Shown one piece after another: positions 14,231 through 28,512 of a DNA stretch of 28,513 bases (within the stretch, counting starts at the first letter, position 1; every line of letters begins with the position of its first letter). Position numbers and translations under genes: made by a program. The stretch comes from Nitrospirota bacterium (GTDB lineage Bacteria; UBA2233), in the NCBI GenBank assembly GCA_011620345.1, contig WOZJ01000050.1:1-28513 (forward strand), in the 5' to 3' direction. The notes under the pieces are model-generated. The model searched no databases. It was given only the letters and a program-made list of their open reading frames with translations, and had not been told where the DNA came from.

Positions 14231-14306
14231 TCCCCGGTAGCTCAGTCGGTAGAGCGAGTGGCTGTTAACCACTTGGTCGGCGGTTCGAATCCGTCCCGGG
14301 GAGCCA
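14231..14306 (+). tRNA. tRNA-Asn (anticodon GTT)
   Basis: Complete 76-nt cloverleaf. The acceptor stem TCCCCGG pairs with CCGGGGA (14296-14302), discriminator G at 14303 and an encoded CCA at 14304-14306. The D-arm contains AGCTCAGTCGGTAGAGC, the anticodon at 14264-14266 is GTT at canonical position 34, and the T-loop reads GTTCGAATC. It sits alone between larE and the sigma-54 activator gene. Confidence 0.97.
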
Positions 14307-14465
14307 AAAAATCATCCGCCGATTTCCCCATTCAACTCACACGTTGCACGACGGGCATATCGCCTATTCAAGAGGCGACGGCCAGGTTTTACCTTGTAGT
14401 CGTTGCCGTAGGGCTGGCTCAGAAGTCAGGGTCGCAGGCTCGAATACTCTTTTGTGGAGCAGCAG
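14307..14465. other. Non-coding stretch after tRNA-Asn with hairpin and possible tRNA remnant
   Basis: No convincing gene. A 6-bp stem-loop TCGCCT...AGGCGA (14360-14378) may serve in tRNA 3' processing or termination, though no T-run follows at once. At about 14428-14450 the string CGCAGGCTCGAATACTCT looks like a T-arm with a broken stem, possibly a decayed tRNA copy. Confidence 0.3.
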
Positions 14466-14699: not shown

Positions 14700-15806
14700 A
14701 TGATCCCCGTAGAGAATCTCGATCAAAGAAGGTACCGCTTAGCGTACCAGGGGGATGCCAAGCAAGGGAATTCGCGTGCCCTGCCTCCTGGTGCCCTGGA
14801 AAAGCTCGAGAAGACGCTTGTCGGCAAAAGCGCCGCTATGAGGGAATTAAAGGCAAACATCCTTAAGCTTTGCCGCCACGATACGACAGTCCTAATTCAA
14901 GGAGAGAGCGGAACGGGCAAGGAGCTTGTCGCTAACATGCTCCATGCGCTGTCCCCCAGGTTTCAAAAGAAGTTTGTCGCGATCAACTGTGCGGCCATGC
15001 CCGAGCAGCTCCTTGAAGCCTTGCTGTTTGGCTACGAGAGAGGGTCGTTTACGGGCGCTGACCGCCAGACAAAAGGCTACCTGGACAATGCCAGCGGGGG
15101 GACGTTGTTCCTCGATGAAATCTCCGAGACCTCCGCCTCGCTTCAGGCAAAGCTCTTGAGAGTGTTGCAGGAGAGGGCCTTCTACAGGTTAGGCGGGCAC
15201 GAGTTAATTCCTGCGGACGTCAGAATCCTTTCTGCCACCAACATGGACCTCCGGGCGTTGGTCGACAAGGGGGAGTTTCGTTGCGATCTCTTCTACCGGC
15301 TCAATGTCGTCAAGGTTGCAACCCCACCCTTGAGGGTACGAAAAGAGGATATTCCCGAGTTGGCCTTGCACTTCTTGCAGGATGTTAGGGAGAACTTGAA
15401 CGGCGAGATTCCGGCGGTAGGTTTCTCGGATTCTGCCATGGCAATGCTGATGAACTACGTTTGGCCGGGCAATGCCAGGGAGCTTCGCAACGCCATCGAG
15501 CACGCCGCGATCTTCGCTCAGTCTGCCCTGATCGAGCCAGGGGATTTCCCCAGGCTGAATGAGGACGACAGGGCCACAATGAAAACACGAGGTTTTTCTT
15601 CAGAAAGGTCGGGTGTCTCTGTTGAGGGCTTAACCGCGGTCGATTTGCGCGAAGCACGCAGACGATTCGAGGAAGACTATTTCCTGGAGCTTTACCGCAA
15701 GACCGGTCACGACCTGAAGGAGGTTGCTAGGCGGGCCGGCGTGGACTTGGCGACCGTCTACCGGAAGTTTGGCTACCTGAGAAAAGCGGATCCCGCTAAC
15801 GAATAA
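14700..15806 (+). CDS. Sigma-54-dependent transcriptional activator (AAA+ plus Fis-type HTH, no sensory domain)
   Basis: Bacterial enhancer-binding protein that remodels RNA polymerase-sigma-54, 368 aa. After about 38 poorly defined residues comes the AAA+ domain: Walker A GESGTGKE (68-75), the sigma-54 contact loop GSFTGA (115-120), Walker B GGTLFLDE (133-140), an arginine-finger region FYRLNV, and the sensor II segment WPGNARELRN. A Fis-like helix-turn-helix (DLKEVARRAGVDLATVYRKF, about 338-357) ends the protein. There is no receiver, GAF or PAS domain, as in PspF, so a partner protein, its own expression or ligand binding to the core may set activity. The usual GAFTGA is GSFTGA. AGAGG lies before the ATG. 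It precedes an acyl-CoA ligase gene and is the obvious candidate to act at the two sigma-54 promoters near 25 kb. Confidence 0.93.
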   Translation: MIPVENLDQRRYRLAYQGDAKQGNSRALPPGALEKLEKTLVGKSAAMRELKANILKLCRHDTTVLIQGESGTGKELVANMLHALSPRFQKKFVAINCAAMPEQLLEALLFGYERGSFTGADRQTKGYLDNASGGTLFLDEISETSASLQAKLLRVLQERAFYRLGGHELIPADVRILSATNMDLRALVDKGEFRCDLFYRLNVVKVATPPLRVRKEDIPELALHFLQDVRENLNGEIPAVGFSDSAMAMLMNYVWPGNARELRNAIEHAAIFAQSALIEPGDFPRLNEDDRATMKTRGFSSERSGVSVEGLTAVDLREARRRFEEDYFLELYRKTGHDLKEVARRAGVDLATVYRKFGYLRKADPANE

Positions 15807-15891
15807 CCGGGAGAGGCAAGTCCTTATGGACTCCAGGTATCAGTGCACAGGGATACGTCCCGAGAGGTCGTTGCAGCGCCATAATGGGAGC

Positions 15892-17442
15892 ATGCGTATC
15901 CTATTAGGAGCCATTGAGCTCCATGCCAAGAACAACCCAAACAAGGTGATGCTGGCCACAGAAGGGACCCGTGTAACATACAAAGAATGTTTTGAAAAAA
16001 TAGGCAGGCTTTCTGCCGCGCTCGAAGGTATTGGTCTTAAGATGGGTGAGAGGCTTGCCTTGGTCCTTCAGAACCAACGCGAGTTTATCGAAAGCTATCT
16101 CGCCTGCATGTTTATGGGCGTGATTCCCGTAGTTATCGGCGAAAGGACATTGGGCGAGGATATTGCAGGCATCCTTGCCAGCACGAAGCCAAAAGCCCTT
16201 ATTGTCGGCCGGTCGCGGTGCTCCTTTGTCAAAGACGCGTGCAGACGGGCGGGCCTGAAAGAAGGTGCGTATTGCGGCGTTGTAACCGGCGATCAGCAAG
16301 TAGACGGCTTCGTGGCCTACGAAAGGCTCTTATCCCGTTATGCCCCCTGCAAGGATCCCCTTACGCAGGGGGGTGCCGTTCCTCTCTTCTATACGGCCGG
16401 CACGACGGGGACACCAAAGGGGGTTTACAGGACGAGCTGGAACGAGGGACTGGTTTCATTTATTCTGTCTTCACTCGTTGAGTTTGGTTTTCATTCCCAG
16501 GAGCGCCATTTGGTACTCTGTCCGCTCTACCACAGCGCGCCGTTCTTCTTTTCCATGCTTACTCTGGCGATCGGCGGGACGCTCACGCTCTTGCCCCGCT
16601 TCGAGCCTGCTTTATTCCTAGAGCTCCTTAGAAAAGAGCGCATTACCAGCGCCTACGTACACCCGAACATGCTTACCGGGCTTCTTTCCCTCCCTGAAAA
16701 GCTAAAGCGCGCCTACAAAGACCTTCCCGACCTTCGTATTATCATCTGTGCTGGCGCCCCGCTCTTCCCGGAGACCAAAGAAGGCGTCATCAACTGGCTG
16801 GGCGATAAGCTCTCAGAGTTCTACGGCTCGACGGAGGCCGGGATCAACCTCTACATGCCCCCAGGCGAGATGCGCCGACACATCACGGCCTGCGGCAGGC
16901 CCTTCCCCGGCAACGAGCTCAAGATTATAGACGAGAACGGCAACGAGTGTCCCCCCGGCGTGCCAGGCAGCCTGTTCATCAGGAACCCATGGATGGCTGA
17001 TGCCTACTACAAGGACGAAGAGTCCACAAGGAAGGCCTTCAAGGATGGGTTCGCCCAGTTTGGAGACTTGATGGTCAAGGACCAAGAAGGCTACTACGCG
17101 TTCATCGAGCACGAATCCAATGTCGTTTCTTTGTCCAAGGGAGACGTGTATCCGTACGAAATCGAGCGGGCTCTTCGCCTTCATCCGGGAGTCCTGGATG
17201 CGGCCGTTTTTGGGGTTCCGGGTTTAAAGCAAACGCAGCGGGTGGTGGCCTTCGTTGTCCTAAAGCCTGGCGTAGCGGTGAGCGAAGGGGATCTGTTGGC
17301 TTTCCTGGGTGAGCGGCTTGAGGGCTTTAAAGTCCCGCAAGAGGTCGTCTTTGTGCAAGAGGTCCCAAGAAACCCTGAAGGGAAGGCTCTCAAAAACAAA
17401 ATGCGGCAGTCATGGCTTGAGATGTGTACTGGACTTACATAG
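15892..17442 (+). CDS. AMP-dependent acyl-CoA synthetase/ligase, copy A (atypical C-terminal domain)
   Basis: Adenylate-forming enzyme expected to activate a carboxylic acid to its acyl-CoA, 516 aa from ATG 15892; this start aligns with the N-terminus of copy B, and an upstream ATG at 15826 would add 22 residues. P-loop YTAGTTGTPKG (167-177) and A5 motif YGSTEAG are present, as is the A10 lysine K498 in NPEGKALK. The A8 hinge, normally DRKSD followed by GG, reads EHESN and SLSKGD (about 406-416), so the conserved Asp and Arg are lost. Bases 16713-16967 are identical to copy B on the other strand while flanks have diverged. Follows the sigma-54 activator by 85 bp. Substrate unknown. Confidence 0.9.
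   Translation: MRILLGAIELHAKNNPNKVMLATEGTRVTYKECFEKIGRLSAALEGIGLKMGERLALVLQNQREFIESYLACMFMGVIPVVIGERTLGEDIAGILASTKPKALIVGRSRCSFVKDACRRAGLKEGAYCGVVTGDQQVDGFVAYERLLSRYAPCKDPLTQGGAVPLFYTAGTTGTPKGVYRTSWNEGLVSFILSSLVEFGFHSQERHLVLCPLYHSAPFFFSMLTLAIGGTLTLLPRFEPALFLELLRKERITSAYVHPNMLTGLLSLPEKLKRAYKDLPDLRIIICAGAPLFPETKEGVINWLGDKLSEFYGSTEAGINLYMPPGEMRRHITACGRPFPGNELKIIDENGNECPPGVPGSLFIRNPWMADAYYKDEESTRKAFKDGFAQFGDLMVKDQEGYYAFIEHESNVVSLSKGDVYPYEIERALRLHPGVLDAAVFGVPGLKQTQRVVAFVVLKPGVAVSEGDLLAFLGERLEGFKVPQEVVFVQEVPRNPEGKALKNKMRQSWLEMCTGLT
16713..16967 (+). repeat. 255-bp perfect inverted repeat, left copy
   Basis: Base-for-base identical, in reverse complement, to 19431-19685. It runs from CTACAAAGACC to GTGCCAGG inside copy A of the ligase and covers residues about 275-358 with the A5 motif. 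Identity stops abruptly at both ends although the proteins stay similar outside. Confidence 0.97.
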
Positions 17443-17954: not shown

Positions 17955-18010
17955 GGGACAAGAATGTCCCGCCTATCGGTTGGCATAAGGCTAGCGCTAG
18001 CCCGGGTTTT
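17955..18010. terminator. Candidate terminator between convergent operons
   Basis: Two hairpins lie in the 82-bp gap: GGGACA-AGAA-TGTCCC (17955-17970) and the palindrome GGCTAGCGCTAGCC (17989-18002), the second followed by CGGGTTTT on the plus strand. The T-run touches the stop codon of the convergent TPR gene. Likely a terminator for the plus-strand operon. Confidence 0.5.
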
Positions 18011-18968
18011 AACGCTTTGCCGAGGCCGTGGCTTGTTGGACGGCTCCGAGGATCTCCTCGCATTGCGGCTTATAGAAGGCCTCGTAGTCAAAGAGATAGT
18101 AGGGGTTTTTCCAGTCAAGAACCTTCCTGCAGTAGACCTGCGCCTTTTGGTTGTCGTGCTCGAGCTTGTAGTACAGCCTTGCGAGCTCACAGTAGGGCAG
18201 TGGGTCATTCGGAATTCTCCTGTGTGCCTCCAAAAGCAGCTCTTCGGCCTTTTGCTTGTCTCCGCCCAGGACTCCAGGGAAGTGCCAAAGCAGGCTTGCC
18301 CTTATGACCGTGACGAGGTAGGCATAATCGTAGCCTTCTTCAGCAGGGGGCTTGACTCTCTTGAAATGCGTTAGCACAAAGTCGATGTCTTTCTCGATCA
18401 CCCTCAGGCGTGGAAGGATTTTGCCGACCGAGAAGACGTTCCGTAGCATGCTTTTCCCCCCATAATTGGCATCCAAGATCCGCGCGAGGGACGCCGCCCG
18501 GCCAAAGTGGCAGGTAACGCTGTTAGGGTCTTTTTTGAGCCCCCTTTCGGCGCACTCTGCGGCCGTTGTGTAGCTTTTGACAGCCTTAGCCTTATCGTGC
18601 TCCCGAACGAAGGCGAACTCTCCCTCTTTGAAGTAGGTAAACCCTATGAGGTAATCGATGTCGGCATCGTTTGGGTCGAGCTTCTGTGCTTCAAGAAAAA
18701 GAGTTCTTGCCTTTTTAAGGGCCGATCGGTCCTTGTGCATTTCCATGGAGGCTATCCAGCCCCTATGTTTGAGCCCCTCGGCCGAAGAGGCGTTGGCGTA
18801 CGGCTGGAAGGCCATCAGGCACATCAAAGCCGTGAAGCCGTAGCAAAGGCACAAGCGGATCACGCAACCCCTCGTTATCTTATGTTGCCCATTCTTTTTG
18901 ACACCCAAACGGCTTTCATTCTTGGCTAAAGAATGTTGGCTGTGCTTGAAACTTTCAGTACTGGTCAT
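18009..18968 (-). CDS. Exported TPR-repeat protein, TRAP-associated
   Basis: Protein of 320 aa with an N-terminal hydrophobic export segment (about residues 35-58, FTALMCLMAFQPYANASS, plausible cleavage after ANA) behind an unusually long polar leader. The rest is alpha-helical with TPR-like repeats such as ALFLEAQKLDPNDADIDYLIG-type and PLPYCELARLYYKLEHDNQKAQVYCRK-type segments (shown here as A-x-LDPND and NDPLPYCELARLYY). ATG 18968 is chosen because it overlaps the stop of the upstream ligase (ATGA) with AAGGAG at good spacing; the two are translationally coupled. Being last in a TRAP-TatT operon, it may be a second periplasmic TPR partner. Confidence 0.8.
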   Translation of the reverse strand: MTSTESFKHSQHSLAKNESRLGVKKNGQHKITRGCVIRLCLCYGFTALMCLMAFQPYANASSAEGLKHRGWIASMEMHKDRSALKKARTLFLEAQKLDPNDADIDYLIGFTYFKEGEFAFVREHDKAKAVKSYTTAAECAERGLKKDPNSVTCHFGRAASLARILDANYGGKSMLRNVFSVGKILPRLRVIEKDIDFVLTHFKRVKPPAEEGYDYAYLVTVIRASLLWHFPGVLGGDKQKAEELLLEAHRRIPNDPLPYCELARLYYKLEHDNQKAQVYCRKVLDWKNPYYLFDYEAFYKPQCEEILGAVQQATASAKR

Positions 18969-20503
18969 GCGTGCTCCTTGATCCATGCCTCCTTGAGTTG
19001 CGTTTTGAGCGTTTTACCCTGCGGGTTGCGCGGAATTTCATTGACGACCGCGACCTCTTTGGGAACCTTGTAATCGGCAAGCCGTTCTTTCAAAAAGCCC
19101 ACCAATTCTTCCTTGGTAAGAGTCTGCCCAGCTTGCGGGACTACGACGGCGGCCACTCGCTCCCCCCAGTAAGCATCCGGCACACCGATTACGGCCGCAT
19201 CGTAGACCTTTGGGTGAAGCATTATCACCTGCTCGATTTCGACGGGGTACACGTTGACGCCGCCCGAAATCACCATGTCAGACTTGCGGTCCACGATGGT
19301 GTAGTAGCCTTCCTCGTCTTTGATGGCCACGTCGCCCACCGAGATGAATCCATCGCGGAACACCTTCTTTGTTCCTTCCTCGTCCTTGTAGTAGGCATCG
19401 ATCATCCAGGGGTTCTTCATAAAAAGCTCTCCTGGCACGCCGGGGGGACACTCGTTGCCGTTCTCGTCTATAATCTTGAGCTCGTTGCCGGGGAAGGGCC
19501 TGCCGCAGGCCGTGATGTGTCGGCGCATCTCGCCTGGGGGCATGTAGAGGTTGATCCCGGCCTCCGTCGAGCCGTAGAACTCTGAGAGCTTATCGCCCAG
19601 CCAGTTGATGACGCCTTCTTTGGTCTCCGGGAAGAGCGGGGCGCCAGCACAGATGATAATACGAAGGTCGGGAAGGTCTTTGTAGTCCTGCTTGATGCCC
19701 TCAGGAAGGGCCAGCAGGCCGTTCAGCACCGTGGGGACGACGAACGTGCTCGTGGTGCGCTGTTCTTTTAAGAGCTTTAGCATCCCTTCGGGTTCGAAGT
19801 GGCGCATCAAAACAAGCGTTCCGCCTACGGCGAGCGTGAGCGTGGCAAACAAAAAAGGCGCGCTGTGGTACAAGGGGCATACGGCCAAATGGCGCTCGTC
19901 GGAGGTATAGCCATACTCTGAGATGGCGTTCATCACCAAAAAAACGTTGCCTTCAGACATTTTCTCCCTGAAGGCGCCCTTTGGCCTGCCTGTCGTGCCC
20001 GAGGTGTAGATCATCGGGGCCGAGCCCTCTTCGGCCAGCGTGTCCAAAGACGGCGGGTTGGAGGCGATGAAATCCTCGTAGGCGACAAAGTCCTTGGAAC
20101 GCTCCTTGCCCGTTACGATCATCCCGCCATCCAAGAAGTGGTAGGCCTTCCCCTGGACTTCCTCGACGCGCTCCATAAGCGTCCTGTCGACGACGACCGC
20201 CTTGGGCGCGGCGTTCGTAAGGATGTGGACGAGCTCATCGCCCCTTAGCTTGTAGCCCACGAACACGGGCGTTACCCCCATGAGCATGCAGGCCAAGTAC
20301 GTCTCGACGTACTCCGGCTGGTTGTACATCATGAGCGCAAGCCTGTCGCCTTGCTTGAGCCCGAGCCCATTGAAGCCGTTGATAAGGCTCCCGATGCGGT
20401 CAAACCCTTCCTTATAGGTGATACTCCTGCCATCCCCTACGAGCATTTCTTTTGTAGGGCTGGTTTTTGCGTACATGAGGAGCATGTCTGTCAAGCCTGG
20501 CAT
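18965..20503 (-). CDS. AMP-dependent acyl-CoA synthetase/ligase, copy B (canonical)
   Basis: Full-length adenylate-forming ligase, 512 aa, predicted to convert a carboxylate, ATP and CoA to acyl-CoA. Motifs are intact: P-loop YTSGTTGRPKG (166-176), YGSTEAG, the A8 hinge DRKSDMVISGG with catalytic Asp and Arg, and the A10 lysine K497 in NPQGKTLK. Overall close to copy A (roughly 45-50 percent by eye outside the identical block). GGGAGG lies 9 bp before the ATG. It is the fifth gene of the TRAP operon, so its substrate is probably what the transporter imports; long-chain, aromatic or alicyclic acids are all possible. Confidence 0.93.
   Translation of the reverse strand: MPGLTDMLLMYAKTSPTKEMLVGDGRSITYKEGFDRIGSLINGFNGLGLKQGDRLALMMYNQPEYVETYLACMLMGVTPVFVGYKLRGDELVHILTNAAPKAVVVDRTLMERVEEVQGKAYHFLDGGMIVTGKERSKDFVAYEDFIASNPPSLDTLAEEGSAPMIYTSGTTGRPKGAFREKMSEGNVFLVMNAISEYGYTSDERHLAVCPLYHSAPFLFATLTLAVGGTLVLMRHFEPEGMLKLLKEQRTTSTFVVPTVLNGLLALPEGIKQDYKDLPDLRIIICAGAPLFPETKEGVINWLGDKLSEFYGSTEAGINLYMPPGEMRRHITACGRPFPGNELKIIDENGNECPPGVPGELFMKNPWMIDAYYKDEEGTKKVFRDGFISVGDVAIKDEEGYYTIVDRKSDMVISGGVNVYPVEIEQVIMLHPKVYDAAVIGVPDAYWGERVAAVVVPQAGQTLTKEELVGFLKERLADYKVPKEVAVVNEIPRNPQGKTLKTQLKEAWIKEHA
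19431..19685 (-). repeat. 255-bp perfect inverted repeat, right copy
   Basis: Exact reverse complement of 16713-16967, within ligase copy B. The two copies are separated by 2,463 bp and sit at equivalent codons of the two genes, including all silent positions. Confidence 0.97.
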
Positions 20504-20542: not shown

Positions 20543-21418
20543 TTAGAAAAACTTATTTTTATTATTCTTGAGCCAAAGCGCCTTTCTCTTCGAAATATCG
20601 TTGGCCAACTGCATTTCTGGCATCACATTGGCAGGGGTTTTGAGGACGAAATCGATGGTCTTGTCGAAGAGCGCTTCATCGTACACCCCTGTAGCGTAAT
20701 ACCGTGCATAGAAAACATGGGCCAGCAAAAATTTGTTTTCTGTTTTTTTGAAGGCAACAGCGAACTCATTCTTAGCCTTTTCTGTGCCACCGCCGAGCAT
20801 GGGACCCGCAATGATGGCGTAGGCCCCCTGAAAAAGGTGGGGGGCATAATTAAAGTAGGTTTCATCGAGAACAATAAGGCGATCAAACGTGTGCGTGGCG
20901 TCCCCGATACCGATCAGGATGTTGGGGTCATCCATTTCGAGCATGACCCTAAGACCTGCATTCAACCCGTACCAGAAGGCCGCAGGGACATCGCCCTTTT
21001 TGAGGTACTGGGCCAAATCGATCATGTGCTTGCCCGTTTCAAGCCCTTTACGGATTTCTCGATTGCGTACCTTAAGCGCCCTAAGGCCGTAATCCCTGCC
21101 GATTTCGTAGATCTCCGCCGCAAAATTCGGGTCTTCCCACTCGAGAATAAGACCCCAGGCCGCATAGGCCTCTGAAGCAATCGCAAGCAGCTTGTCGTTG
21201 TTTGGTGAAAACTCGACGAGTGCCGAGATGAGCAGGGCGTTGCCTGGAAGGCCCTCTTTAGCCACTGATGCGCTTTGAAAGCCCATCAGATTATCCACGG
21301 TGTGCTTGAGCACGGGTTGAAGAGTGTCTACCCCTTTTCGTTCGACAAAAGAGCAGCTCGAAAGAAGCGCGGCAACGGAAACTGCCCAAACGACGCCAAC
21401 AAAACGATGTCTACTCAT
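20543..21418 (-). CDS. TatT-family lipoprotein of a TPR-associated TRAP transporter (TPAT)
   Basis: Lipoprotein of 291 aa. The ATG at 21418 gives a clean signal ending in the lipobox LLSSC (Cys22) with AAGGGA upstream; the longer frame to 21463 would overlap the permease gene. The rest matches the TatT (T component) helical family, known from Treponema pallidum Tp0956, which forms trimers with the TRAP substrate-binding protein and contains a hydrophobic pore. TPAT systems have been proposed to carry hydrophobic ligands. It directly follows the three TRAP genes, which confirms a TPAT system. Confidence 0.88.
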   Translation of the reverse strand: MSRHRFVGVVWAVSVAALLSSCSFVERKGVDTLQPVLKHTVDNLMGFQSASVAKEGLPGNALLISALVEFSPNNDKLLAIASEAYAAWGLILEWEDPNFAAEIYEIGRDYGLRALKVRNREIRKGLETGKHMIDLAQYLKKGDVPAAFWYGLNAGLRVMLEMDDPNILIGIGDATHTFDRLIVLDETYFNYAPHLFQGAYAIIAGPMLGGGTEKAKNEFAVAFKKTENKFLLAHVFYARYYATGVYDEALFDKTIDFVLKTPANVMPEMQLANDISKRKALWLKNNKNKFF

Positions 21419-21447
21419 GTGGCTGTATCCCTTTAGTTCTAAATAGA

Positions 21448-22764
21448 TCAGACTCCAGACCAAGACGATCCTAAGGGAATCAACTCCTTATTCATTCCTA
21501 GGGCCGTCGGGAGCCAAAGGGTAAGGTCCGGCCAATAGGCGATGAGGATAAGCCCAAGGGCTTGGACCAAAAGCCGTGGAACAACGGCTCTAAACAAAAC
21601 CTCAAGCGGCTCCCTGAAGCGGAACGCTCCGATAAAGAGGTTAAAGCCAATCGGGGGTGTCGAATAGCCCAATTCCAGGTTCCAAAGAAAGATGATGCAG
21701 AAATGGACCGGGTCTATCCCGTAGCCTGTCGCTACGGGGAGAAGGAGCGGGACCATTACGAGGATGGCGCTGAAAACGTCCATCAGGCAACCCGTAATCA
21801 AAAGGATAAGATTCAAAAAGAGCAAAAAGACAAGCCTGCTCTTGATAACCCTGAGTAAGAATTCGAGGAAATGCTGGGGGATCTGCTGGTCGATCAGGAA
21901 GTTCGAGAAGGTGAGCGCGGAGACAAGAATGGCGAAGATCGCCCCGACAAGGACTAGGCTTTCCGTCCCCGCCTCAGTGACCTTAGAGATCGTAACCTCC
22001 CTTCGGATAAGAACCTGAGTGATAAAGATGTAGAGGAGACTTATGATGGCCACCTCGGGAACGCTCATCCAGCCGGCGAAAATTGCGACGATGATGAAGA
22101 ATGGGAGCGGGGCCTCCAAGGCCACGGCCTTCAGCGAAGCGATGGCGGGTTTCCATTGAAAGGGGGAAGAGGGAATTCCAGCACGGTAAGCATGGATGAT
22201 GCAGTAGACGATGTATATCGCCGTGAACACAATCCCCGGCAAAAGGCCCGCAACGTAGAGTTCGTCTGTCGCCTGGTAGGAGATGAAGCCGATCACGATG
22301 ATGGGCAGGCTTGGTGGAAAGAGCATGCCTTGCCCGCCGCAAACCGTGCAGGTCCCCAGGGCGAAGTTTTTATCGTAACCCGACTTCATGAGGGCGCTGT
22401 AATAAATTCCCCCGAGCGCCATGACGGCCAGGGCCGAACCCCCAGTGAGGGCGCTGAAGACGGTGTAAGCGATGACAGTGGCAATCGCCAACCCACCTGG
22501 CAGCCAACCAAGCCAGTGATTGGACAAATCGGCCAGCCTCTGGGAAGCCTTTGAGTAACTCAGGATATAACCCATGAATGTGAAGATCGGAAGGGCCAAG
22601 AGGCCAGGGGCCTCCATCACGATCTTGACCTGAGTGATCATCGCCTGGAGAGGGACATGGGCGACCTCGGCGAAATAAAGCGCAGCCAAAAGCCCAAGTA
22701 CGGCCAAAAGGGGAGTCCCGATTAAGGCCGAAAGCAAGATGCCCGAAGCGAGAGCAGTAACCAT
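21448..22764 (-). CDS. TRAP transporter large permease (DctM/TRAP-L)
   Basis: Integral membrane permease of 438 aa with about 12 hydrophobic segments, the normal size for DctM. Typical features are the LLALPIFTFMGYIL segment, SALTGGSALAVMALG near residue 115, GGQGMLFPPSLPIIVIG (about 150) and the second half STPPIGFNLFIG. It carries out sodium-coupled solute transport with the small subunit. AGGAGG lies 6 bp before the ATG. It is 10 bp after the small permease gene. Confidence 0.95.
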   Translation of the reverse strand: MVTALASGILLSALIGTPLLAVLGLLAALYFAEVAHVPLQAMITQVKIVMEAPGLLALPIFTFMGYILSYSKASQRLADLSNHWLGWLPGGLAIATVIAYTVFSALTGGSALAVMALGGIYYSALMKSGYDKNFALGTCTVCGGQGMLFPPSLPIIVIGFISYQATDELYVAGLLPGIVFTAIYIVYCIIHAYRAGIPSSPFQWKPAIASLKAVALEAPLPFFIIVAIFAGWMSVPEVAIISLLYIFITQVLIRREVTISKVTEAGTESLVLVGAIFAILVSALTFSNFLIDQQIPQHFLEFLLRVIKSRLVFLLFLNLILLITGCLMDVFSAILVMVPLLLPVATGYGIDPVHFCIIFLWNLELGYSTPPIGFNLFIGAFRFREPLEVLFRAVVPRLLVQALGLILIAYWPDLTLWLPTALGMNKELIPLGSSWSGV

Positions 22765-22774
22765 GCTAAGCCTC

Positions 22775-23320
22775 CTAGGCCTTTAAAAGGGCGGTTAGGG
22801 CCATACGTAAGGCACTCGAGGCGTAAAAATAAAAGACTACGAGGTAAAAGGGCCAGGTGGGATAGTCGTAGTACGTCGATCGGTCTCCCGTGCGGATCAA
22901 CGTTTGCAGGTACTCAAACGTGGCATAGGTAAAGATGGCGAAGACCAAACACGCCATGAGGTAGGCCACGATCCTGACCGCCTTCTTCAAGGTAGGGTTT
23001 TTGATGTACCGGACGATGTCAATCCTGAAGTGCTCAAGTCTTGTCGTGGCAAGGCAGGCCCCGAGAAAACCCGACCAGAGCATACTGTACTTCACCATGT
23101 CCCCCATCCAAATGTAGCCGACAGAGAAGAATGCCCGTAAAAACCACTGGAGAAAGGCGCCGGTGCAAAGGAGGATGAGAAAAAACAACATCAGCGCTCT
23201 TTCGATGAATAAAAACCTCTCATTGGCTTTCTGGAGCCATCCCTTCCAACCGCCCAGCTTGGCATAGCGAGGTCTGCTGAAGTTGAGGTTTTCTTGATTG
23301 GATAGAGCTTCCTGCACCAT
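22775..23320 (-). CDS. TRAP transporter small permease (DctQ)
   Basis: Four-helix membrane protein of 181 aa. After a 30-residue polar N-terminus come hydrophobic segments at about 40-64, 72-90, 118-137 and 155-178, with the family-typical WMGDMVKYSMLWSGFLGA and TTRLEHFRIDI segments. Forms the membrane unit with the large permease. GAGGAA is at good distance before the ATG, and the gene begins 12 bp after the substrate-binding gene ends. Confidence 0.94.
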   Translation of the reverse strand: MVQEALSNQENLNFSRPRYAKLGGWKGWLQKANERFLFIERALMLFFLILLCTGAFLQWFLRAFFSVGYIWMGDMVKYSMLWSGFLGACLATTRLEHFRIDIVRYIKNPTLKKAVRIVAYLMACLVFAIFTYATFEYLQTLIRTGDRSTYYDYPTWPFYLVVFYFYASSALRMALTALLKA

Positions 23321-23331
23321 GATTGTTTCCT

Positions 23332-24777
23332 CTATTTTTTTTGGAAACCCTTGTACCTTGGGCTCCTTAGGTAGCCCACAATCTCTTGAAGCCTTTGGTT
23401 AAGCGCTTCCTTAGTGCCGTAGAGTTTTTTGATGTCGTTTTTATAAGGAAGAACGTACTTCTCCATTTCTCCTTCAGCCCTGTAGTTCCCGAGCCATGCG
23501 ATAAAAGTGTCTGTCTTTCCTGTCTTGATGATCTCTTCCGAGGCCCCGATGAGGTCGTAAAGCCGCCATTTTTCGATGACATGATCGCTTTCCAGCTTGC
23601 CGAGTTCCTCCTTGGAGCCGGTCTTGATGTAGGTCTCGAGGGCGTCGGCTACCTTTTTTTGCCTTTCCGGAAAGTTCGCGTACGAAGGATCGGCCTCAAA
23701 GATGGCCTTTTCTATGGAGGTATCGTAACCTGCGAGGGCAGCCGATATTTTTTCGTAGGCATCGCGCTTTTCCTTGTCATTGCCCAAATAGGCTACCCTG
23801 TAGGCTAGGCAGGGCTCTTTCCACGCCTTGAGCTCTTCGGGGCTAAGCGAGATCACCTTGGAGCCGTATTTGAGCATCGCCTTGGTAAAGGCCACGGCCC
23901 CGTCGCGCATGGTACCGTTTATGTTCCAGTGAATGAATGGGGTTATAGCAAGGAATGCGATGCGGAAGCCGTTAGGCAGCCTTTCGAACGCCTGCCTGGT
24001 GATCATGGGCGCCGTCATTGACGTCCTTATGGGTGGCTGGACAATGTAAGGGAGAGCCGTGTAAATCTGCATGCCGATGACGAACATGGAGGGTAAGATC
24101 ACGGCATTCGAAAGCCCTGCCTTGAACGAGGGGAACATCTCGGGGGGCTGAATAGGAACCTGTGGAATCCCATGGGCCCTAAAGAACGTATCGTCAGGCC
24201 CGCCCGTGTAGTTGCAAGCTTTGACGTTGTTTTTCAGGGCTTCAGGCGTCCGCCATGAACCTGCCAAATAAAGATCATGGATTCCTTCTGTCAGCTCCAA
24301 GAAGTTTACAAACCCCTTGTCCCAAAGGACATCGTTGAAGTCCTTCATTGCCGTCATGGCCCTGTCAAACTGGCCATAGTCGTTGATCAGGTAGGCCATG
24401 TAGACGACTTCGAGCTTTCTTGAGATCGAGGGTTGGGCGTTGACGGTGGGTGTCACGACATCCAATTGGCCCATCTGGGCCTTCTGGAGCATCTGGTTGT
24501 CATCGCCCATGACACCCCCGTAGTAGGGGATGAACCCTATGTCGTACCCCAAGTTTTTCCCTATGGGTTTGAAGAAATCCTTTTCAACGGATTCCAGGGC
24601 ATTCGTCACGTTTGTCCCTTTAGGCCCCAGAGTCCCAAACTTGAGCCTAATCTTGGGAAGCTCCTGGGAAAAAGCCATACCCTCAAGCCCAACAAGCATT
24701 GAACAAGCCCAACAACTGGCGCAGACAAACGACTTAAGGCCATTTCGCCGAAACCATGCCCTTTTTTGAGAACTCAT
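23332..24777 (-). CDS. TRAP transporter substrate-binding protein (DctP-like), large form
   Basis: Periplasmic solute receptor of 481 aa with signal peptide (about 1-37, cleavage near MAFS-QE). The TRAP DctP fold starts at KIRLKFGTLGPKGT; GQLDVVTPTVNAQPS and the family helix DLYLAGSWRTPEALKNNVKA follow. Most DctP proteins are 320-370 aa; the extra length is a charged helical C-terminal region from about 340. The Arg of the DctP carboxylate clamp is not certain (R in SWRTPEALK is a candidate). AAGGGAG precedes the ATG by 5 bp. First gene of the six-gene operon, downstream of a sigma-54 promoter on this strand. Confidence 0.92.
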   Translation of the reverse strand: MSSQKRAWFRRNGLKSFVCASCWACSMLVGLEGMAFSQELPKIRLKFGTLGPKGTNVTNALESVEKDFFKPIGKNLGYDIGFIPYYGGVMGDDNQMLQKAQMGQLDVVTPTVNAQPSISRKLEVVYMAYLINDYGQFDRAMTAMKDFNDVLWDKGFVNFLELTEGIHDLYLAGSWRTPEALKNNVKACNYTGGPDDTFFRAHGIPQVPIQPPEMFPSFKAGLSNAVILPSMFVIGMQIYTALPYIVQPPIRTSMTAPMITRQAFERLPNGFRIAFLAITPFIHWNINGTMRDGAVAFTKAMLKYGSKVISLSPEELKAWKEPCLAYRVAYLGNDKEKRDAYEKISAALAGYDTSIEKAIFEADPSYANFPERQKKVADALETYIKTGSKEELGKLESDHVIEKWRLYDLIGASEEIIKTGKTDTFIAWLGNYRAEGEMEKYVLPYKNDIKKLYGTKEALNQRLQEIVGYLRSPRYKGFQKK

Positions 24778-24837
24778 GCCATCTCCCTTTCGCCGCGTTA
24801 ATTAGATTTCACTCGACCCTACCGCCTATAAATACGT

Positions 24838-24853
24838 AGCAAAAACATTGCCA
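24838..24853 (-). promoter_or_regulatory. Sigma-54 promoter of the TRAP/TatT/ligase operon
   Basis: On the minus strand the sequence reads TGGCAATGTTTTTGCT, matching the -24/-12 consensus TGGCAC-N5-TTGCW except for one base, with the essential GG and GC correctly spaced. It lies 61 bp upstream of the TRAP substrate-binding gene. Confidence 0.75.
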
Positions 24854-24924
24854 AGAGAATGCTTCCATAAAACCGCACTTCTTAAGGTAATAACCAAGAT
24901 GGGGACCGGTGACATTTTTGCAGG

Positions 24925-24940
24925 TTTGCAAATTTGCAAA
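24925..24940. promoter_or_regulatory. Perfect 16-bp palindrome, candidate enhancer for both sigma-54 promoters
   Basis: TTTGCAAATTTGCAAA is its own reverse complement (two tandem TTTGCAAA units). It lies 72 bp from the minus-strand promoter and 75 bp from the plus-strand promoter, an ordinary distance for an activator upstream site. Only one such site was seen in the window. Confidence 0.6.
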
Positions 24941-25015
24941 TGCGTGCCTGCATCGACTCCTTATGATTTTTAGAAGAAAGGCAGGATTTATCGTTATTTT
25001 CGTCCTAAATTAAGA

Positions 25016-25031
25016 TGGCACGGTGATTGCT
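25016..25031 (+). promoter_or_regulatory. Sigma-54 promoter of the FAD oxidoreductase pair
   Basis: TGGCACGGTGATTGCT is a full match to the sigma-54 consensus TGGCAC-N5-TTGCW. It lies 55 bp upstream of the chosen ATG of the first oxidoreductase. The rest of the 308-bp divergent gap shows no gene. Confidence 0.88.
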
Positions 25032-25085
25032 ATCCATATATAGCAGGAATGGTTTGACATGATGATCCAATACCGAGGGACTAAA

Positions 25086-26801
25086 ATGGCAAAGCTTCAC
25101 TATGACATCGTGATCGTAGGCGGTGGGCCGAACGGGCTTGCCGCGGCGGCCTACCTGGCCAAGTGCGGGCTTAGTGTTTGTATCCTTGAAGAAAGGCTAG
25201 AGGCCGGAGGGGGAGCAGAAAACACCGAACCAATCCCCGGCTGCCGGATCGATCCTCATGCCACCTACCTCTACGGAGCATACGCGCCCGGGTTCGATCA
25301 GCTCGAGCTGGACAAGTTCGGTTTTCGGATGAGCCATGCCAGGAATTTCGGTGGGGTCGTCAACTACGATGGCACGGGGACTGCGGCCGGTCTGTACAAC
25401 ATAGAGTATACGCTAGAACAAATAAAAAAGCGCTCGCCGAAAACGGCGGAAACGTTCCGCTACCTTTACGACAACCTCTTTACCCCAAAGAACCTGGGGA
25501 ATTTCTTGCGCTCAATCTACTGGACGCCGCCCCCGCCTGTGGGGATGCCCATGGACAAGAGCGATTACCCATGGTCGCAAGTGCTCAAAAAGCTCTTGCC
25601 CGGTCTCTACGACGATGTCTGGAACGATTTCAGCGGGTTCGAGCTTATGGATGCCTTATGGGATTGGGAGCCCCTTACCGCTGCCCTTGGTCTGGCAAGC
25701 TGGTACAACGGGCCCCATCCGATGTGGAAAGGGGTCGGCATTCAGGCATTTGCCTGCAATCTTTTAATGCTGGGCAGCAATGGGGTCCCAAGGGGCGGCA
25801 TGCATTCCTACATGCACGCCCTGATAAGGTGCGCCATGTTCCACGGGGCCAAGCTTATCACGAACTGCAAGGTCGAGGAGATCCTCGTCGAAGACGGCGA
25901 GGCCAAAGGGGTCAGGCTCGCAGAAACCTCCCCCCTGGGAAACAGAACTATTTGGGCGGACAAGGCCGTCATCGCGAACACCCATATCAAGCAAACCTTC
26001 CTCGATCTAGTCCCCAAAAGGCACCTTGACCAGGATTTCGTCCAAAAAATCAAAGACATCAACCTCAACGGCGGCAGCCTCTACGTCATGCACCTCGTTT
26101 GCAAGGAGCTGCCCAAGTACGTAGGGGAACAAGGTGAGATTATGAAAGGCAAGAACTACCCGATTGCCTTGGTTGGACCCTGCGACAGCCGAGAGTATCT
26201 CATCAACCAAACGATCGACGTGTACTCGCACCGTACCCACCCTCTAAGGAAAGAGAGCATGACGTTCGTCATCGGTCAACACGACATCATTGACCCGAGT
26301 AGGGCGGGGGGCGATCTGTTTGTCGTTTCTCCGATTTACCTGCAGATGCCGCCTCCGGAATACCACAGAGACGGACCAAACGCTGTCAATAAGGCAAAAG
26401 ACGAGATCAACCACGCGATTCTCGGCGCAATCAGAGAAATGGCCCCGAACATGACGGAGGACAATATTGTTCATATGTTCGTGAACACGCCGGAGGATTC
26501 CTCGTTCAGAAACCTCGGGTTTGTCGGGGGAAACTGGTACGGAACGCGTCATGATCGAGACCAGTGGTGGGAAAAAAGGCCGCTACCCGAGCTTTCCAGG
26601 TATCGGACGCCGGTTGACAAGCTCTATCTTTGCAACCAAAGCTCCTACCCCGGCGGGCTGTGCTTGATGGCCGTACCCTACAACTTGATGCACGTCTTGA
26701 TCGAGGACGGGATCGCAAAACCGGGAGAATGGTGGTACCCATCGCCTTGGTACATTCCGGAATCTGAGGCGAGGTATTCTCGTTCTAAGGTTCCTGCATA
26801 A
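25086..26801 (+). CDS. FAD-dependent oxidoreductase, CrtI/PYROXD2-like, first of a pair
   Basis: Flavoprotein of 571 aa in the phytoene desaturase/PYROXD2 branch of the amine-oxidase-like superfamily. Dinucleotide-binding GGGPNGLAAAAYLAK is near residue 13, the following LEERLEAGGGAENTEP places the ribose-binding Glu, and the C-terminal YPGG motif (SSYPGGLCLMAVPYN) closes the FAD site. ATG 25086 is chosen because GAGGGA precedes it by 6-7 bp; ATGs at 25059 and 25062 lack a site of that quality. Family members desaturate, saturate or isomerise hydrophobic substrates. Likely induced with the TRAP operon from the sigma-54 promoter. Exact reaction unknown. Confidence 0.88.
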   Translation: MAKLHYDIVIVGGGPNGLAAAAYLAKCGLSVCILEERLEAGGGAENTEPIPGCRIDPHATYLYGAYAPGFDQLELDKFGFRMSHARNFGGVVNYDGTGTAAGLYNIEYTLEQIKKRSPKTAETFRYLYDNLFTPKNLGNFLRSIYWTPPPPVGMPMDKSDYPWSQVLKKLLPGLYDDVWNDFSGFELMDALWDWEPLTAALGLASWYNGPHPMWKGVGIQAFACNLLMLGSNGVPRGGMHSYMHALIRCAMFHGAKLITNCKVEEILVEDGEAKGVRLAETSPLGNRTIWADKAVIANTHIKQTFLDLVPKRHLDQDFVQKIKDINLNGGSLYVMHLVCKELPKYVGEQGEIMKGKNYPIALVGPCDSREYLINQTIDVYSHRTHPLRKESMTFVIGQHDIIDPSRAGGDLFVVSPIYLQMPPPEYHRDGPNAVNKAKDEINHAILGAIREMAPNMTEDNIVHMFVNTPEDSSFRNLGFVGGNWYGTRHDRDQWWEKRPLPELSRYRTPVDKLYLCNQSSYPGGLCLMAVPYNLMHVLIEDGIAKPGEWWYPSPWYIPESEARYSRSKVPA

Positions 26802-26838: not shown

Positions 26839-28512
26839 ATGGCGCAAGTTTTCTCGGAATATGCAGAGTGCTCCGTAAAAAGGCCTGACGATTATCCGCT
26901 TAAGGAGCTCGACAACGTCATTCAGGCGGATGCCGTCGTCATCGGCGGCGGCCCGAACGGACTGATTACGGCGGCCTATTTGGCCAAGGCCGGGGCTAAG
27001 GTTGTCTTGTGCGAGAAACGCTACGAGGTAGGCGGTGGTCTGGCCACGGAAGAGGTCATGTTTCCCTGTTTTTTCGCCAACACGCACGCTACCTACCACA
27101 TGATGGTGGACTACATGCCGCCCATCAGGGATTTTCAGATGGAAGAGCTTGGCCTTCGCTGGATTCGGCCAAACGCGCAGGCGGGGCTTGTGCTCAAGGA
27201 TGGGAGAGGCCTTCTGCTCTCCCACATGCTCGAAGACAGCTGCGACTCGATCCTGAAGTTCTCGAGGGACGACGCCGCCGCGTTTGGGAGGGTTCTCCCC
27301 GAGTTTCATCGGATGGTCGAAGAATTCCTGGCGCCTGCGACCTACTGGCCGCCTGTTCCCCCTGTTGACCTTGCCCAGGCGATGCAGGTTACGGAAGTTG
27401 GCAAGGAACTCGCAGAAATCTCCGAGATGAGCCCGCTCGAGGTGGTGGATCGCTACTTCGACGACAAGCACCTCAAGGCTTTGGTGACCTATATCACCTG
27501 TATGTGGGGGTTGAACCCCAACGAAGGGGGTATGGGTTTTATGGTACCCCTTCTTTTGGACCGAGGGCTGAGTAAGCGCCTCTGTTACGGGGGCTCGCAC
27601 AAGTTCTCCGGAACACTGAGCAAGCAGGTTTACATGAATGGGGGGCTCATCTTAGAGAATGCCGAGGTCACCAAAATTATCATCGAGAACGGCAGGGCTG
27701 TGGGCGTGCAAATGTACGACGGCAGGGAGGTGCGGGCCAAGGTGGTCGCTTCCAGCCTTGATCCCCAGACGAACTTTTTGAAACTGGTGGGCAAGGAGCA
27801 CTTGGACAAGGCGATGATAAGCAACGTGGAGGGGTGGAAGTGGGATAAGTGGAGCCTCTTCACCGTTCATTTGGCGCTTAACGAGCCCCCCAAGTACAGA
27901 ACGGACGACGCCATGATCAACGAGGCCTTCTTGAACGTCCTTGGGGCGGAGACCCAAGACGATGTGCTCGATTATTTTGATTCCGTCCTAGCCGGAAACC
28001 CCACGAACCTCGTGGGCCATGTGAGCTGTGAGACGCTCTACGACCCCACTTACGTGCGCGTGCCCGGCAACAAGCACACGGCCTTCTTCCAGACCCCCGC
28101 CCCCTACGACATCCAGGGCGGCTGGGAAAAGCGCCAAAAAGAGCTCACCAAACAAGCGCTAGAGGTCTGGAGAACCTACGCCCCGAACATAAGCGAGGAA
28201 AACATTATTATGGTGTCCTCCGAGACTCCCTTGGATATCGAGGCACGGATTGCCAACATGGTCCGCGGGTCCTTCAAGCACGGCGATTACAACCCCATAC
28301 AGATGGGGTACTTCAGGCCGAACGACATCTGCTCTGCCTCCAGGACCCCGATCGAGGGAATGTACCTCTGCGGCGCTTCCATGTACCCTGGTGGGCTGAT
28401 TATCGGAGGCCCCGGCTACATCGCGGCCAATACGATCGCTGAAGACATGGGGCTAAAGAAGTGGTGGAAAATTCCAGACAATATTAAAAAATACATCGAG
28501 ACGTACCTTTAA
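26839..28512 (+). CDS. FAD-dependent oxidoreductase, CrtI/PYROXD2-like, second of a pair
   Basis: Flavoprotein of 557 aa, complete to the stop at 28510-28512, one base before the window ends. The nucleotide-binding GGGPNGLITAAYLAK sits near residue 37 after a 28-residue N-terminal extension; CEKRYEVGGGLATEE follows, and the C-terminal LCGASMYPGGLIIGGPGY is the family FAD motif. Clearly homologous to the gene before it but well diverged, so an old duplication that may form a heterodimer. The gap is 37 bp with AGGGAGG before the ATG, so both are in one operon. Further operon genes may follow outside. Confidence 0.9.
   Translation: MAQVFSEYAECSVKRPDDYPLKELDNVIQADAVVIGGGPNGLITAAYLAKAGAKVVLCEKRYEVGGGLATEEVMFPCFFANTHATYHMMVDYMPPIRDFQMEELGLRWIRPNAQAGLVLKDGRGLLLSHMLEDSCDSILKFSRDDAAAFGRVLPEFHRMVEEFLAPATYWPPVPPVDLAQAMQVTEVGKELAEISEMSPLEVVDRYFDDKHLKALVTYITCMWGLNPNEGGMGFMVPLLLDRGLSKRLCYGGSHKFSGTLSKQVYMNGGLILENAEVTKIIIENGRAVGVQMYDGREVRAKVVASSLDPQTNFLKLVGKEHLDKAMISNVEGWKWDKWSLFTVHLALNEPPKYRTDDAMINEAFLNVLGAETQDDVLDYFDSVLAGNPTNLVGHVSCETLYDPTYVRVPGNKHTAFFQTPAPYDIQGGWEKRQKELTKQALEVWRTYAPNISEENIIMVSSETPLDIEARIANMVRGSFKHGDYNPIQMGYFRPNDICSASRTPIEGMYLCGASMYPGGLIIGGPGYIAANTIAEDMGLKKWWKIPDNIKKYIETYL

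Follow-up and report, generated by a model that had tools for sequence, protein, structure and literature searches.

Does one site between two divergent operons of a Nitrospirota bacterium switch on both a TRAP uptake system and a set of FAD oxidoreductases by way of sigma-54? The stretch of DNA analyzed here (the window; 28,513 nt) is the beginning of contig C26 of this bacterium's genome (1.80 Mb, 72 contigs) and carries the two operons, the gap between them, and, some 10 kb from that gap, a gene for a sigma-54 activator at position 14700. We read the gap as a bidirectional sigma-54 control region with a shared palindromic enhancer, most likely served by the 14700 activator, and give this reading a probability of roughly 45%. 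The features on which the argument draws are collected in Table 1.

Table 1. Features of the window that bear on control of the divergent gap
Feature	Coordinates	Strand	Basis or remark
Sigma-54 activator (bEBP)	14700..15806	+	AAA+ domain, GESGTGKE, GSFTGA, C-terminal Fis-type HTH; sensor domains, receiver included, absent
Acyl-CoA ligase paralog (ligase 2), degraded A8 motif	15826..17442	+	19 bp after activator gene
Near-identical stretch of the two ligase genes	16713-17018 and 19380-19685 (approximate)	+ and -	DNA comparison
TPR protein, last of left gene run	18009..18986	-	Family match
Acyl-CoA ligase 1	18965..20503	-	PF00501, PF13193
TRAP T-component (TAtT)	20543..21463	-	PF16811
dctM, TRAP large membrane subunit	21448..22764	-	PF06808
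dctQ, TRAP small membrane subunit	22775..23320	-	PF04290
dctP, TRAP solute-binding protein, first gene of left operon	23332..24777	-	PF03480, TRAP_S1
Divergent control gap, dctP/first FAD oxidoreductase (putative)	24778..25058 (to 25085 if ATG 25086 is the start)		ORFs and sequence
Candidate, weaker sigma-54 promoter of TRAP operon, TGGCAATGTTTTTGCT	24838..24853	-	GG-N10-GC intact; predicted start ~24827
Degraded third octamer TTTGCAGG, in tandem with the palindrome's two octamers	24917..24924		Predicted function only
Perfect 16-bp palindrome TTTGCAAATTTGCAAA, probable enhancer (UAS)	24925..24940		Perfect, unique, at enhancer distance
Predicted sigma-54 -24/-12 promoter of oxidoreductase operon, TGGCACGGTGATTGCT	25016..25031	+	Exact consensus; predicted start ~25042
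FAD oxidoreductase, carotenoid desaturase/ketolase superfamily, first of right operon	25059..26801	+	Family match
Second FAD oxidoreductase	26839..28512	+	Family match

A divergent arrangement, which a preliminary description of this DNA had proposed, holds for either possible start of the right-hand operon: the dctP start codon lies at 24777 on the reverse strand, and the first oxidoreductase starts at 25059 or 25086 on the forward strand. The later of these two starts has the better ribosome site, with GAGGGA ahead of its ATG, and is probably the true one, in which case the protein would begin MAKLHYDIVIVGGG; the dctP ATG is also preceded by a good SD sequence. Simple scans of 24700 to 25200 found no match to a sigma-70-type promoter and none to a terminator, the gap holds no IHF site with 0 or 1 mismatch, and a search of the window for structured RNA returned only the tRNA. 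Past the end of the window the right operon continues with two more FAD oxidoreductases, followed by an aldehyde dehydrogenase and an iron alcohol dehydrogenase. Contig C26 thus has, from 25059 to 32446, four consecutive carotenoid-desaturase-like FAD oxidoreductases together with the two dehydrogenases.

The right-hand promoter is the firmest element. The sequence upstream of the oxidoreductase operon is, as first reported, an exact match to the consensus TGGCACG-N4-TTGCW, has its GG and GC 10 bp apart, and is the single such occurrence in the 1.8-Mb genome. The genome-wide scan gave 21 further sites with one mismatch, and sites with two mismatches (272 in total) are barely more numerous than those found with a reversed-pattern control (221), so such sites are mostly noise. 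On a weight matrix built from 29 intergenic Salmonella sigma-54 sites (PMC3844500), the right-hand element scores 19.8, within the 16.3 to 23.8 span of those proven sites, and the score is reached in 0.015% of shuffled gaps (P ~0.00015). The element stands 54 nt ahead of the SD-preceded ATG at 25086. We hold it to be, with considerable confidence, a sigma-54 promoter, and the oxidoreductase operon is very likely under sigma-54 control.

The left-hand element has been described as one mismatch from consensus, which is correct against TGGCAC-N5-TTGCW but becomes two mismatches against TGGCACG-N4-TTGCW: A and T stand where C/T and G/A are usual, while both invariant dinucleotides are correctly spaced. 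By the Salmonella-derived matrix it scores 6.7, under all 29 proven Salmonella promoters (minimum, 16.3), and that score is matched in 12% of gap shuffles (P 0.12). Set beside the excellent right-hand site, this low score would suit an account in which only the right-hand promoter depends on sigma-54 and has the palindrome as its enhancer, the left-hand match is due to chance, and the TRAP operon is read from a promoter that escapes simple scans. We consider that account somewhat unlikely, although it is the strongest of the alternatives. The left-hand element keeps the invariant GG/GC spacing, and a short-consensus search that holds GG and GC constant and tolerates one mismatch finds a match in the left orientation in only 0.3% of shuffles (P 0.003). 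With TGGCAC-N5-TTGCW searched in this way, the left- and right-hand sites are the only two in the window, and a 49-kb sample of DNA from elsewhere in the genome has none. Sites of left-hand quality occur elsewhere in this genome at a frequency that predicts 0.008 to 0.054 of them per gap and strand, depending on the pseudocount. Furthermore, the element lies at a typical distance from the dctP ATG (60 nt), resembling the distances that separate the -12 element from the start codon at this genome's other good sigma-54 sites (44 nt on C14, 59 nt on C16, and 51 nt on C72), which we count in its favor, and a sigma-70 candidate that could take its place is missing from the gap. Weighing the matrix scores, the shuffles, the rarity of the short consensus, and the start-codon spacing together, we place much more trust in the right-hand promoter than in the left-hand one, which we treat as a candidate whose use is, on balance, favored.

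About midway between the two elements lies the palindrome, perfect over 16 bp, as had been noticed earlier, and made up of the self-complementary octamer TTTGCAAA twice in a row, head to tail. It is 75 bp from one promoter element, in agreement with the preliminary description, and 71 bp, rather than the 72 bp given there, from the other. Measured from its center, the predicted starts are 105.5 and 109.5 bp away, and enhancers usually lie 80 to 150 bp upstream of sigma-54 starts (PMC4987338), so the site is at enhancer distance upstream of both promoters. The earlier proposal that it is an enhancer shared by both operons is therefore borne out as far as position goes, and is weakened on the left, where the element one to two mismatches from consensus is only a candidate promoter. 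It is also conceivable that the palindrome is a chance tandem of octamers in AT-rich DNA, with no role, and that activation proceeds through some other, unrecognized site. A perfect palindrome of at least 16 bp arises in 0.7% of dinucleotide-shuffled gaps (P ~0.007), a rate at which many such palindromes would be expected by chance across the genome, yet this one is about midway and at standard enhancer distance from both sites and is the longest perfect palindrome of the window; we regard a chance origin as very improbable. Its position points to the palindrome being probably an enhancer. No second copy with up to two mismatches occurs in the genome except its own register-shifted copy, and the operator sequence matches none of the published PrpR, NtrC, PspF, NorR, FhlA, GlrR, or AtoC enhancers. 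A possible likeness to the XylR operator was given no weight.

The genome encodes the machinery that such a region would need. It has one RpoN (PF04552, E 2.4e-50), and the protein encoded at 14700, previously proposed as the activator, has both a sigma-54-contacting AAA+ domain (PF00158, E 4.7e-66), in which GSFTGA is a one-letter variant of GAFTGA, and a C-terminal HTH, which phmmer matched to the NtrC-family HTH chains 4fth and 3e7l; its relatives in the PDB are NtrC1/NifA/ZraR. Six canonical sigma-54 activators (AAA+, GAFTGA-like loop) are encoded in the genome, five of which start with a receiver domain. The 14700 protein is the only one without a receiver and so is the best candidate for binding the palindrome. 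No other regulator was found among the scanned proteins of the window and downstream. The activator operon is transcribed toward the 3' end of the TRAP operon, and the two operons, side by side, carry paralogous ligases. Even so, we put the chance that the 14700 activator is the protein that binds the palindrome at about even.

The five receiver-type activators leave room for a different arrangement, in which one or both promoters are sigma-54 dependent but the palindrome is bound by one of them, or by an unrelated repressor or activator, while the 14700 protein acts elsewhere. Comparison with the closest relative bears on this. Searches at family, order, and phylum level each covered two genomes, our own and a sister (Nitrospirae bacterium UBA2233; TRAP contig DDYN01000010.1). 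The sister's activator ortholog is 93% identical, with one change in the HTH region (D338N) and a conservative R361K just after it, and the gene order is the same: activator, ligase 2, small membrane protein, TPR protein, ligase 1. The sister assembly holds no dctP ortholog above 40% identity and no relative of the oxidoreductase, and an activator kept with its HTH nearly unchanged where these genes were not found may have other targets. Against this, the sister contig stops within ligase 1, short of the TRAP operon and in the stretch repeated between the ligases, so the TRAP region may simply be missing from the assembly; in addition, no regulator lies nearer than the 14700 activator, whose operon includes a paralog of the TRAP operon's ligase. 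We judge binding by another protein to be unlikely, and favor the 14700 activator at the palindrome.

Searches for further relatives of the locus returned little. Genome-contig searches with dctP, both as a single sequence and as a three-member alignment, returned only the sister genome, and a search for the orthologous gap across 386 genomes of the domain found none past our own and the sister at E 1e-70. Two sister candidates were rejected. At the sister's TRAP locus (contig C53), which is either a paralog or a copy that has diverged (40%), a thiolase gene faces dctP and a -24/-12 site is absent, and this locus does not represent the orthologous gap; a PAS protein near it has PAS and STAS-like parts without AAA+ motifs and is not the activator. 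The oxidoreductase cluster does recur in another phylum, where three of the four genes lie together (L082, L083, L084). These relatives are without TRAP genes and without a recognizable sigma-54 site upstream, which makes the pairing of oxidoreductases with the TRAP operon lineage-specific among the genomes searched.

The letters of the promoter elements and the palindrome, their geometry, and the genes for RpoN and the activator are read directly from the DNA, and from them we infer a mechanism. RpoN polymerase would wait in a closed complex at the strong right-hand and the weaker left-hand promoter. An AAA+ activator, most likely the 14700 product, would bind the palindrome ~106 to 110 bp upstream of either start, loop out the DNA, and spend ATP to open either closed complex. 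Since one activator would open either complex, uptake and activation would be switched on together with oxidation, and uptake of an organic acid and its activation with CoA would be co-induced with its oxidation. Use of the left-hand promoter, the enhancer role of the palindrome, the identity of the activator, and the inducer are the predicted parts of this scheme. Several observations count against a shared switch: the left-hand score beneath all references, the distance of the palindrome from the activator's own gene, the five other canonical activators, and the oxidoreductases of the other phylum that occur without TRAP genes or sigma-54 sites. Were the scheme correct, a regulator, its binding site, and its two target operons would be named for a rarely sampled lineage, and the TRAP importer, the acyl-CoA ligase, and the carotenoid-desaturase-like oxidoreductases would form one catabolic unit.

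The preliminary description called a single-site, two-way sigma-54 switch at a TRAP locus unusual, a view that comparison with known systems does not support. Divergent sigma-54 promoters are served by one activator at zraP/zraSR, under ZraR (PMC4987338), and at hyc/hyp, which share FhlA (PMC4987338; promoter coordinates in PMC3844500), and FhlA itself acts at an enhancer whose consensus, CATTTCGTACGAAATG, is likewise a perfect palindrome of 16 bp (PMC4987338, Table 1). The hycA/hypA region of Escherichia and Salmonella has two divergent -24/-12 promoters and a 16-bp palindromic enhancer, the arrangement proposed for ours, but differs in its operator sequence, in its gene contents, and in promoters that are only ~115 bp apart, and the N-terminal part of FhlA, unlike the 14700 activator, senses formate. 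One of the two operons that ZraR controls encodes ZraR itself, a response regulator, whereas the candidate here lies 10 kb off and is without a receiver. The dctPQM TRAP operon of Pseudomonas aeruginosa needs RpoN and DctB/DctD (PMC7962211) and so is a TRAP uptake operon that requires RpoN and an activator, as is proposed here, but its regulator is a two-component one and it comes without an acyl-CoA ligase and carotenoid-desaturase-like oxidoreductases. Activators of the PspF type share with the 14700 protein an AAA+ domain and HTH without an N-terminal sensor domain; however, the 14700 protein scores 261 bits on TIGR02974, under the PspF equivalog cutoff of 443.55, and has no psp genes nearby.

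Elsewhere in the genome, two sigma-54 sites with one mismatch each form another divergent pair, ~200 bp apart, on contig C68 (L052) at 1516 (-) and 1717 (+). This pair flanks a 7-3-7 inverted repeat, TGAATCA-AAA-TGATTCA, and fronts a glycosyltransferase-like gene and a short gene of unknown function. Taking the known divergent pairs, the FhlA palindrome, the RpoN-dependent TRAP operons, and the C68 pair together, we regard the architecture as already known and the regulation as ordinary; what appears to be new at this locus is the operator sequence and the pairing of genes.

The two ligases have a history of their own. Their genes are ~55 to 65% identical in DNA, save for one ~300-bp stretch at 96 to 100%, which indicates recent gene conversion between them; in the sister, whose contig ends there, ligase 2 is also unusually near ligase 1 over the same ~300-bp stretch (86%). 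The A8 motif of ligase 2 is lost in both genomes, reading EHESNVVSLSKGD (EHESNVVSLSK) where ligase 1 has DRKSDMVISGGVN (DRKSDMVISGG), but the protein still has the A10 lysine, and its dN/dS of ~0.2 indicates purifying selection. Ligase 2, which adjoins the sensorless sigma-54 activator, may be a retooled or non-thioester-forming paralog. It is a highly speculative idea, which we think improbable, that ligase 2 is a retired enzyme now serving as a sensor of the acid taken up (or of its adenylate) and controlling the activator that would fire both sigma-54 promoters from the palindrome.

Other features of the locus are recorded here as minor observations. The C-terminus of DctP is ~150 residues longer than those of solved TRAP binding proteins. 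In TRAP binding proteins a KIR motif is usual, and its arginine holds the ligand carboxylate; the position of that arginine aligns with Ala/Asn in all three relatives. Homology to the sister halts after the tRNA-Asn gene (14231-14306) and returns 142 bp on (14322-14465), and in place of those 142 bp the sister has ~9 kb with, by eye, RND-type efflux genes, which marks an insertion/deletion hot spot at the tRNA gene. Elsewhere in the genome, on contig C14 (L036), a one-mismatch sigma-54 site at 1516 (-) stands 44 nt ahead of a gene that reads like nifB, and the genome may encode nitrogen fixation.
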